A stretch of DNA of 64,000 nucleotides from Rhynochetos jubatus (Eukaryota > Chordata > Aves > Eurypygiformes > Rhynochetidae), in assembly GCA_027574665.1 (NCBI GenBank), contig CM050657.1, positions 20,500,700 to 20,564,699 on the forward strand. The letters are read 5' to 3'. The notes beneath the pieces are model-generated. The model searched no databases and was not told where the DNA came from. It saw nothing but the letters and a program-made list of their open reading frames with translations. The position numbers and the translations under genes are program-made. Shown one piece after another: positions 3,588 to 64,000 of the stretch. Positions within the stretch are counted from its first letter, which is position 1, and every line of letters begins with the position of its first letter.

Positions 3588-49696
<46,109 letters not shown>

Positions 49697-51265: not shown

Positions 51266-52135
51266 GATCTTTTTCCTTGTTGTCTTGTTTTTGTCTGGGT
51301 CAGGGCAAAAATGTCATATTCCTCCTGCAGTCTGGGGAGCAGAGACTGTGACTGCGGGGTCCTGAGATAAGGGTAACCAGAGGATGGGGCACTGCGAAGC
51401 ATCCTGGGCTTCGTCATGCCATTGGGGACCCAATCCAGAGTCTCTCAGTAGACCTTTGGAGGGTTTAAGATCTGTCCTTTAGGCTTCAAAACCCTACCCT
51501 AGGAAAGAGAAATATTTCACTCATTTAACAGCAGGGGCTGGAGCAAGGTCACGTTCAAACACTGTTGTGGGGCCTTGAGCTCAGGCTGGTGATGCGCCTC
51601 CCGGCCGCTCATGGGGACGATGTCGGGAAGCAGCGGCTTGGCTGGCTAATGGCAAACACTGACTCACCAGAAGGATAAAAATCCATAGTCCAGAAGCTTA
51701 ACGGGCCTCCAACTGCATGAAATGAGCCTTTAGGGTCTAAAAGGAAAAAAAAAGAACATCTTACTTTGGGAGTATCATTTGAAATCAGGTCCAAAGCCCT
51801 GCTTCTTCTGGACAAGCTGCAGAGTGGTGGGAAGTGGGATATCAAGGAAAAGCCAGTGTTGGCCCAGGTAATGCACATTTTCCTGCTTTTCCCATCAGCT
51901 GGGAGAAAGGGGCTGTCAGCTCCCAAGGGGACCATGGGGATGTCCCTGCCTGCAACACCCGGCCAAGCTTGGTCTTTGCAGCTGCTGCGCAAGGCTGTCC
52001 TTCATGTTTAAGTGGCTTGAAAGAGTGAATGTGGTGCACTGTGGGGGTCTCTGTGCAGTGGGACCGAGGATTGCTATCCCCAGCTGCAAACAAGCTGGCA
52101 TGAGCCAGCAACGACCTTCCCGGACAGGGTGGGGA
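51266..52135. other. intergenic, MECOM downstream
   Basis: Unique sequence with chance ORFs. No gene is seen. Confidence 0.7.
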
Positions 52136-52315
52136 GCACTGGGACAGGTTGCCCAGAGAAGCTGTGGATGCCCCATTCCTGGCAGTGTCCAAGGCCAGGC
52201 TGGATGAGGCTTGGAGCAACCTGGTCTAGTGGAGGGTGTCCCTGCCCATGGCTGGGGGGTGGGACTGGGGGGGCTTTAAGGTCCCAACCCGAACCATTGC
52301 ATGATTCTGTGATAA
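52136..52315 (+). mobile_element. CR1 LINE 3' fragment
   Basis: It reads CACTGGGACAGGTTGCCCAG, then GAAGCTGTGGATGCCCC, AACCTGGTCTAGTGGAGGGT, and ends CATGATTCTGTGATAAT, the CR1 tail. It is a short, 5'-truncated copy in + orientation and clearly from the same family group as 28877-29040. Confidence 0.93.
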
Positions 52316-61300: not shown

Positions 61301-62739
61301 ACTGTTCAGCACATAGGAAAATGGACAACTTAGGTAAAGAGCTAGCCGCCGCTAAATGGCTGTCGACGTTGCCAGCAGTCATTAGGCAGCCTTTGGCTTT
61401 GAACAAGAATATCATAAAGCCGGGGGGACGAGCTCCCCCTTCCCCTGCGCCGGGGCAATATTTCACAGCTACCGCCCCGACGTACCAATCCATGGCTAAA
61501 CCTCGCGGCAACTCGCGGCTCAAAACAAGTAGCGAGGGTTTAGTTAACCCCGGCTTGCATTCCTGACTGCGATTTTGTTTGAAGAGCGTAAGGCGAGGAG
61601 GGGATCCTGCGAAGGGTTGCTCACAACGCTGCCGGTGATTGATGTTCCTTCCCAGAGCAGTGCACAGCCCTCCCAGCCCTAATTGCCGGGTGCTCTCTCG
61701 TGGCTGCGCGGGGAAGTGCTCACGGTCCCTCCGCCAGTTCAGGCCAGACTTTCTTCAAAACAAATTAAAGACAAGGGCCCGTTGCCAACTGGAAGCAACT
61801 CCGGGCGATTACAAAGTCCCCAGTAAGAGGACTCTTTACAGCCCAGTACACAAGTGCTGGGCTGCCGTCGCTCCTTGCTGGGCTGGTGTTGGGGAGAAAA
61901 TTCAGACTTTTACCTAACTCCTCCCTGTTCGAGCAGCCAAGAAACGAGCAGGAGCTAAACCAGGTCTTGCTGGGCTGAGGTACCAGCAGTGACATCCTTG
62001 TGCTGGCAGCAGGTTTCTCCCCATTAGCTGGTAACTATGAAAGCAATATTGAAATTCTGCTTTACCTTCCTTTTTTTCCGGTTACGCCAAGTACAAAAAC
62101 CAGAGCACAGGTCAGTGTGCAGAGCGCTATAGGCGAGCCAGACCTGAGCAGTGCGGAAAGGCTGTCTTGATTCATTGCACTCATATGCTTTTGGCTGCAG
62201 TAAATTCACTCTCCTGCTACAGCATGCAATTTGAGGGTTTATTGAATACTGGCACAAACAGAGGGGAATCATCAAAGTCTAGATAATTGCAGGGTTGTTT
62301 TTTTTTTTGCTTCCGCTGTCATGGCTTTACCAGCTATTGTCTTGCTGCTTGGGAAAGCATGGCCAAGTACCTCTCACAAGAAATAAAGTATTAAAGCAAA
62401 TTTTACTCCTTTTTCTATTTCTTTTTCTTGTGGTAGGACTTACTCTTATGTACGAGTCTTTACAGTCTCCAGGAAGTTTTCAGTTTCTTCTCCTATTTCA
62501 GTATCCCTTTAGTCAGCATTGTCTCTGAAAAACGTTATACAAGATCCCGTCCTTCTTTTCTTAGCACCCAAACTCTTGGCCTCCTTCTGCTACAGATGGT
62601 AACACCTCTTCTTCCTCAGAAATACTTCGGCCTGGGAAATCCCTGGAGCAGCTTTCCGTCCACCGCAGCAAGCACCAGACAGCCTGCCGGGAGAGCGCCT
62701 TCCCTCCTTCAGCCTTCACCTACCATTTGTCTTCCCCGC
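52316..62739. other. intergenic, about 10.4 kb
   Basis: No gene, exon pair or RNA gene can be supported. Longest ORFs (163 codons at 53912, 133 at 57086, 122 at 60439) have no domain similarity that I recognise. A 13-base tandem pair lies at 55801-55826. The block 58870-59110 is AT-rich with paired forkhead-type words and looks enhancer-like. Homopolymer runs lie at 57331-57343 and 58079-58094. In human the region 3' of MECOM is gene-poor, which agrees. Confidence 0.65.
55801..55826 (+). repeat. 13-bp tandem duplication
   Basis: GAAAGTCCTGCTA occurs twice in succession. Probably a local slippage event. Confidence 0.7.
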
Positions 62740-63330
62740 AATCCCCACGTTTCAGCTCCCCTAAAAATCACCCGGAGATCACTGGCCGTTTCAGAAAAGA
62801 CAACTGCTCCGTCGCAGTCGAAATCTGAGCTCGCACATATGGTTGAAGTTAAGCTAAGGTCTTCTTCCCAGAAATGCTTTGTGAAGTTCTTCTCCAGGCA
62901 AGTCTTTTCCAGTAAGATAGTGTCTCCTTGCCTGCTATTTTGCTTAGTCTCGCTTTCTTTTATCTTCCTTGTCGAACTCAAATGTCGCCATTCACTGCTA
63001 GCAGATGTGGTTTGGGATTCCTACATTCTTTTATGCCTTTATTTCAGTGCTTTCATCACAGCTTCTCTTTCAGCTAGGTGAATCAAAGGCCTTTCCATAG
63101 TCCAGTCAATGCAAGCTATACATGATGGCTTGTTTTATTTGGCAATCTTCTCCAGTATGTGATTCATTGTCTGCAGGTGATTCATAGTTAGGAAATTACT
63201 TCTGAACCCTGCCAGTGCTTGTGGTTGATTAAAGTTCAGAAGTCCCTGTAGTCTGTTCACCAGCGCTTTTTTGTCAACTCAAATACTTGTGTGCAGTAAA
63301 GAACAGTAAAAAGTGGATGTGCTATTGACA
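62740..63330 (-). mobile_element. degenerate RTE-clade LINE reverse transcriptase fragment
   Basis: Read on the - strand, the following appear in the order expected of an RTE-type reverse transcriptase: KKALVNRLQGLLNFNQP, then QALAGFRSNF, MNHLQTMNHILEKIAK (stop) NKPSCIACID, DYGKAFDS in a shifted frame, EAVMKALK, NSRQGDTI with LEKNFTKHFWEED, and DGAVVFSETASDL where the usual motif has ADDI. Nematode-type RTE elements have the same blocks (NQP-EQAGFR, IEK--EYN-PL, DYEKAFDS, RQGDTISP, ADDIVVFSE). Several stops and at least two frame changes show it is dead. I see no endonuclease domain upstream to the window end. The edges are approximate. Confidence 0.75.
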
Positions 63331-64000
63331 TGAGCAATTTACTTGAATGTTTGCATCTTTAGAAAGTTCTACCAAAATTTTTAGAACTGGCATGAAACTG
63401 CTTCACAATGTCTGACTAAATGAATCACGTTTTACAAATAAATATCTGTCAAATTGTTCAATTACTCGAGATCCAGTCATTAAGCAATAAAATAAAGCAG
63501 TAAATAGGAGACATCTGCTGCAAAGTGCTACAGAAACATAAGCATCTTTCTCAAGTTACCTTCTTTGCATGTCGGTATAATGATTCACCAAAAATGTCTT
63601 ACCCAAGGCAATCAAACATCGGAAAATTGTCCCCCGCAAAACAATATTGGCATAGCATGGTACCTTACCCAAAGCAAATACAGCTTAACGTCTCGGTGGA
63701 GGCTACCTAGGAACAAAGAGGAGAAGACAGGTCAGTTGACGTGCTGCAGCGTTATTAGGTGAGACCAGATGGTTCAGGATACTGAAACCTTGAAAGAAAA
63801 ATAGTATTGGAAGTCATTGCTTCTGATCTTGAATTAATTTTTTAAAGATGTAAATGCTGCCCTTCCTTTGAAAGATAATATTTCCCATAATAGCCAAGAG
63901 AGAACCCACCTTTCCCTTTACATCAGAGATGCTTGTAGGAATAACATTAACACTCAAGGCATGGATGGTGGAAGGGATTAAACATGGAGTCTCTAAGGAC
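63331..64000. other. intergenic, window end
   Basis: AT-rich, unique. It lies upstream (5') of the RTE fragment in that element's orientation, but I find no recognisable endonuclease motif here. Confidence 0.6.

Follow-up and report, generated by a model that had tools for sequence, protein, structure and literature searches.

The 64-kb window analysed here (the whole stretch of DNA, C12:20500700-20564699) carries on its minus strand a decayed reverse-transcriptase (RT) domain, which we classify from its translated sequence as that of a LINE of the RTE clade. With a probability of roughly 80%, this relic is a dead, truncated RTE LINE from an old, vertically inherited family, that is, an ordinary ancient fossil with no detectable present role. 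It possibly belongs to an unnamed RTE subfamily.

Reverse-transcriptase blocks of the relic

Frameshift-tolerant alignment to a generic RTE RT sequence places the recognisable relic at 63302-62747 on the minus strand. The preliminary description had assigned it the interval 63330-62740; the RT relic does lie there, but only the slightly shorter part is recognisable. The same description had reported seven RT blocks, ordered on the minus strand and split by stops and frame changes. Translation locates all seven in the correct order and in two frames.

The blocks NFNQPQALAGFR, HILEKIAK and NKP share one common frame within 63278-63126. An open piece at 63135..63278 carries NRLQ, NFNQP, LAGFR and HILEKIAK, the RT blocks that precede the first catalytic aspartate. 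The first catalytic-aspartate block, LDYGKAFDS, lies at 63079..63105 (DYGKAFDS itself at 63102-63079) in a frame other than that of HILEKIAK and aligns to IDYAKAFD of BovB. EAVMKALK (63065-63042) is found by translation in the frame of HILEKIAK again, as are RQGDTI (62916..62933), which is also recovered by alignment, and VVFSETASDL (62775..62804). The latter stands immediately behind the position of the second catalytic block, whose ADD letters the relic no longer has. Further blocks are GIPNHI at 63004..63021, in the DYGKAFDS frame and aligned to GIPDHL of BovB, and LRF at the RFADD position, which appears in an alignment with a laxer frameshift penalty.

The generic RTE RT aligns to the relic with a score of 215 and 73/192 identical residues, spanning 186 of its 210 positions with 5 frameshifts and 3 stops. 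With the laxer penalty the alignment has 79/193 identical residues, 10 frameshifts and 1 stop, the frameshift and stop counts varying with the penalty chosen. The 3′ limit of the relic falls inside the RT domain. Broken by stops and frame changes, the relic is a dead copy.

Comparison with BovB, chance and CR1

RTE-type RT domains are marked by the blocks FNQP..AGFR..T..HI, DYxKAFDS, RQGDTI, ACLE and SET. The relic carries an RT domain with blocks of this type, as judged by translation, alignments and shuffles. The generic RTE RT was written by hand after the relic had been read, and its score is therefore partly circular, even though none of 200 shuffles reached it. The case consequently rests on BovB (RTE-BovB), whose RT was also a hand-written reference but was not shaped on the relic and constitutes an independent test.

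The frameshift-tolerant alignment of the BovB RT gives a score of 68 at 63212-63004, with 23/70 identical residues. It starts at AGFR (63212), inside the open piece, and covers just the first part of the relic (query positions 1-62 of 176). AGFR, DYxKAFD and GIPxH all align with the relic; at RQGDTI, in contrast, the BovB reference has RQGC. RQGDTI is a form of other RTEs. The score of 68 is the highest for the BovB RT anywhere in the window on either strand, followed by 44, while its maximum in the reversed window is 46. Among 200 dinucleotide-shuffled versions of the 1.2-kb stretch around the relic, none attained it (maximum 46; fitted p ~1e-5). A chance run of motifs is rejected on the reversed window and the shuffles.

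CR1, like the relic, is a non-LTR LINE, and it is abundant in the genome studied. A CR1 RT taken from a copy in the same genome scores only 35 at the relic, against 68 for BovB at the same place, and the relic is assigned to RTE and not to CR1; this assignment refers to a comparison of two LINE clades, RTE and CR1, with hand-written RTE references. The earlier separation of the element from CR1 is therefore upheld by the BovB and generic RTE RT scores alike, and CR1 identity is rejected within the limits of these references. Genuine CR1 remnants of the window behave differently from the relic, with scores of 162, 114 and 76 for the full CR1 protein. They lie on the plus strand at 16131-16280, 36621-36973 and 52117-52196, correspond to the 3′ part of the CR1 protein, and are identical to the same-genome CR1 copy at 32/50, 40/122 and 16/27 residues, respectively. 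A CR1 piece of the window occurs at a minimum of 41 genome places, itself counted, with 70-100% identity (best 40 of 4,392 candidates scored). These CR1 copies, like the genome size of 1.33 Gb, are in keeping with a bird as the source.

That the relic is CR1 or another LINE mistaken for RTE, or a chance motif run, appears extremely improbable. Such a misreading would agree with the Pfam results, as none of the three plain read-through frames of the relic matches a Pfam family, and the relic joined across frames matches RVT_1 with an E value of 0.0069 and 16.6 bits, under the curated cut-off of 29.6. It would also agree with a full CR1 protein score of 40 at 62785-62670, the best in the 1.2 kb around the relic and lying across its end, but this score is within chance since the reversed window reaches 52. 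Against such a misreading stands the CR1 RT score of 35 compared with 68 for BovB, which no shuffle reached.

A phmmer search of the PDB with the 47-aa piece of the relic gave no match. When the four relics of an alignment were scanned alone, RVT_1 was matched by two of them (E 0.0069 and 0.067, both under the cut-off), and by four of the six alignment rows when two hand-written sequences were included. A profile of the same six rows matches LINE RTs (R2, LINE-1) in the PDB, which, given the two hand-written rows, says little on the relic itself. An IMG/VR scan for a related RTE reference yielded 12 stretches that fit the pattern, none of them confirmed.

Decayed relatives elsewhere in the genome

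The 1.33-Gb genome was searched with a 149-aa generic RT query that was composed before any relic other than that of the window had been read. It finds at least 147 places at E ≤ 1 (best 150 of 806 candidates scored). Six were inspected individually: the window relic (E 1.4e-11), C5:18512526 (3.8e-6), C5:17438827 (8.1e-5), C8:12084320 (7.6e-4), C5:27025266 (0.0117) and C46:2038476, which is CR1 on inspection. The other 141 were classed as CR1-like by identity alone (18-30%). The read-through of the relic itself matches C5:18512481 (E 0.028) and C21:15560063 (E 0.85). The latter was rejected as a relative, as it shows no RTE on inspection (BovB 42, generic RT 41).

The generic RT, whose N-terminal part was written after C5:18512526 and C8:12084320 had been read, scores 190 at C5:18512526, 139 at C8:12084320, 91 at C5:27025266 and 120 at C5:17438827, in each case with 0/200 shuffles reaching the score. 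BovB, in contrast, is unmatched by shuffles only at C5:17438827: its score is equalled by 16/200 shuffles at C5:18512526 and by 84/200 at C5:27025266, not above chance, and the 6/200 at C8:12084320 make that match weak. With the first part of the relic as query, C5:18512526 scores 85 and C8:12084320 scores 70, values reached by none of 200 shuffles each, and the relic therefore groups with these two. The same query gives 32 at C5:17438827 (30/200 shuffles) and 22 at C5:27025266 (199/200), the latter fragment covering a part of the RT other than the first part of the relic.

C5:17438827-17439258 (L016/L049, plus strand) scores 159 with BovB (0/200 shuffles) and 67 with the CR1 RT. It overlaps the first part of the relic only over a short distance and may represent another, more BovB-like old RTE-like lineage, perhaps RTE-X. 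The blocks FNKAFDHVW and DDVDLIGG are seen in this element. In the BovB RT genome search no row exceeds 36% identity (best 150 of 2,939 candidates scored); the two rows inspected, C5:17438836 and C46:2038482, are the elements C5:17438827 and C46:2038476 already mentioned.

With a hand-written C-terminal RTE query, not shaped on its matches, 12 places come up at E ≤ 10, and for five the value is below 0.01. The three best were inspected and aligned without shuffles, and all are decayed RTE C-terminal fragments: C7:16638147 (L075, C7:16637900-16638800; E 9.3e-13, 8 stops, 59/154 identical), C3:94644244 (L076, C3:94643950-94644700; 47/116 identical to the generic query) and C3:23195511 (L077, C3:23195250-23195950; 38/82). 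Pfam returned only unrelated families, under cut-off, for the C7 fragment and for L016. Thirty-one places match an RTE endonuclease query, judged here from the match table; where the open frame is long and the identity 23-31%, the match is probably to CR1. The best match of this query, C48:19835476-19835715 (L060, minus strand; E 3.2e-6, 38%, a 106-aa frame without a stop), gives chance scores with the RT queries.

Altogether, alignment or scoring in this single genome covered seven decayed RTE-like fragments besides the relic (L044, L045, L046, L016, L075, L076, L077). The statement in the preliminary description that RTE elements are rare in birds thus holds better for young than for old copies.

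Age, origin and alternative readings

The DNA of the relic, compared with the 1.33-Gb host genome, matched only itself, although copies this diverged may escape a DNA search. Over all aligned codons the window relic agrees with three relatives at 40-41% of nucleotides, and in the best block with two of them at 50-51%. Within that block, its third codon positions match those of its two best relatives at 22/63 and 23/65, about 35%. This near-saturation applies to the window relic only and yields no date, and the fragments compared possibly belong to different subfamilies. With one pair that shares 5 codons left aside, five pairs of relics agree at 38-49% of nucleotides when every aligned codon is counted, and three pairs at 50-59% within the best block; shuffled codons agree at means of 26-28%. 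The pair C8:12084320 and C5:27025266, at 37.5%, is barely above the best shuffle (36.8%). An agreement with its relatives of just 40-51% of bases suggests that the relic is old and its family probably pre-avian; the other inspected fragments, broken and strongly different from the window relic, likewise argue for an old family. On these sequence comparisons, the family was probably active before modern birds and passed down by vertical inheritance from ancestors among the amniotes or archosaurs.

PMC5753468 describes RTE families of amniote age. There, RTE is counted among the clades of ancient repeats in the human genome, with X3_LINE, X11_LINE and UCON82, the last likened to coelacanth, crocodilian and turtle RTEs (RTE-2_LCh, RTE-2_Croc and RTE-30_CPB) in their 3′ tails; the same text cites 130 human repeat sequences shared with chicken, probably of amniote age. 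By this description, these elements, RTE-2_Croc and RTE-30_CPB among them, resemble our relic as RTE-clade remnants of old date in amniote genomes. UCON82 differs in being likened to 3′ tails; what is readable of the relic ends inside the RT domain. In the painted turtle genome, the abundant LINEs include CR1 and RTE (PMC4054807), and among ORF-preserving LINEs of five birds PMC5486457 gives one RTE, in budgerigar. A narrow literature search returned no description of old RTE relics in birds.

Among the three origins first offered for the element, the best fit is a much older RTE relic of amniotes, and an AviRTE-like insertion is not supported. The latter would require a horizontal transfer to a bird lineage some tens of million years ago. 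The relic is, like AviRTE, an RTE-clade LINE in a bird, and AviRTE is the sole named bird RTE family met in our literature search. However, AviRTE is young and multi-copy (PMC4844689), with 141-8,306 copies per carrier genome and subfamilies 83-99% identical between genomes, whereas a genome search with the relic DNA recovers nothing beyond the relic, and the relatives seen are isolated and diverged. The BovB RT, generic RT, endonuclease and C-terminal queries brought up no young RTE among the matches listed, 8 stops interrupt the best C-terminal match, and the relics agree at only 38-59% of bases. Likewise, more than 100 similar RTE copies were not seen among the matches listed, in searches run without an AviRTE positive control. 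We reject an AviRTE-like recent transfer on copy number and on the decay of the relatives, AviRTE being set apart by its description and its letters not compared, and give this origin hardly any credence.

An origin of intermediate age is unlikely but deserves more weight: an RTE subfamily that entered the stem lineage of birds, or the order of this bird, and became extinct early would be younger than the amniote ancestor and older than AviRTE. The few copies would suit it, as would the closer agreement of C5:18512526 with C8:12084320 (59% in the best block, 32/63 third positions), from which some of the relic set may be less old. Against it, the window relic itself agrees with both at only the 22/63 and 23/65 third positions given above. 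More tentatively than the reading we prefer, and with a probability that we consider low, the relic, C5:18512526, C8:12084320, C5:27025266, C7:16638147, C3:94644244 and C3:23195511 could together represent an RTE lineage absent from Repbase/Dfam that dates to early archosaurs or stem birds.

For the old, vertically inherited fossil that we favour, the following origin can be proposed. Target-primed reverse transcription is the way in which RTE elements move, and 5′-truncated copies are a common result. An active RTE element would long ago have copied itself by this route into DNA that today lies 3′ of the MECOM C-terminal zinc-finger exon. Two zinc-finger parts of a hand-written MECOM protein match the plus strand of the window, ending at 26593 and 43632 (scores 322 and 314), and ~19 kb separate the C-terminal zinc fingers from the relic on their 3′ side. 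The copy would then have decayed neutrally, with ~555 bp of the RT region still readable. We infer this mechanism and the neutrality of the decay, as we do the pre-avian age and the vertical inheritance. On the minus strand of the 9.3 kb around the relic, neither an endonuclease (score 36, the chance level of a query of like size) nor a C-terminal domain (score 39) was found, both scores standing without shuffles of their own, and the remaining downstream part of the RT was likewise not found beside the relic. A fragment or a 5′-truncated RTE copy need not keep the endonuclease. LINEs usually retain their 3′ end, and with both parts not found, deletion, rearrangement or erosion beyond 5′ truncation is assumed.

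A later use by the host would be compatible with such a fossil origin: co-opted as a conserved non-coding element or an antisense exon near MECOM, the relic might owe the survival of some of its blocks to that role. RQGDTI and VVFSETASDL are strikingly well preserved for an old copy, and the relic shares part of its span with a plus-strand open frame of 214 aa (62437-63078). Block survival, however, also reflects which relics readers can notice. The open frame has no Pfam match; a frame as long arose in 1/500 dinucleotide shuffles of 62001-64000, and it is unremarkable because 1/500 per 2 kb is not rare across a 64-kb window. Rfam gave no match in the whole window at gathering scores. Co-option is thus very unlikely in our view, Pfam on the overlapping frame and Rfam on the window giving no sign of host use. 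Another long frame, of 651 codons without a stop, was noted on the minus strand close to the window start (485-2437); the residues it encodes point to DNA of very high G+C content, which may be a CpG island.

RTE motifs in a bird are by themselves no evidence for transfer from nematodes, and the copy number and decay of relatives need to be checked first. If the unlisted RTE lineage considered above were real, birds would have carried diverse RTEs long before AviRTE. A CR1-rich bird genome still holds readable scraps of RTE, which can be recovered by frameshift-tolerant protein comparison.
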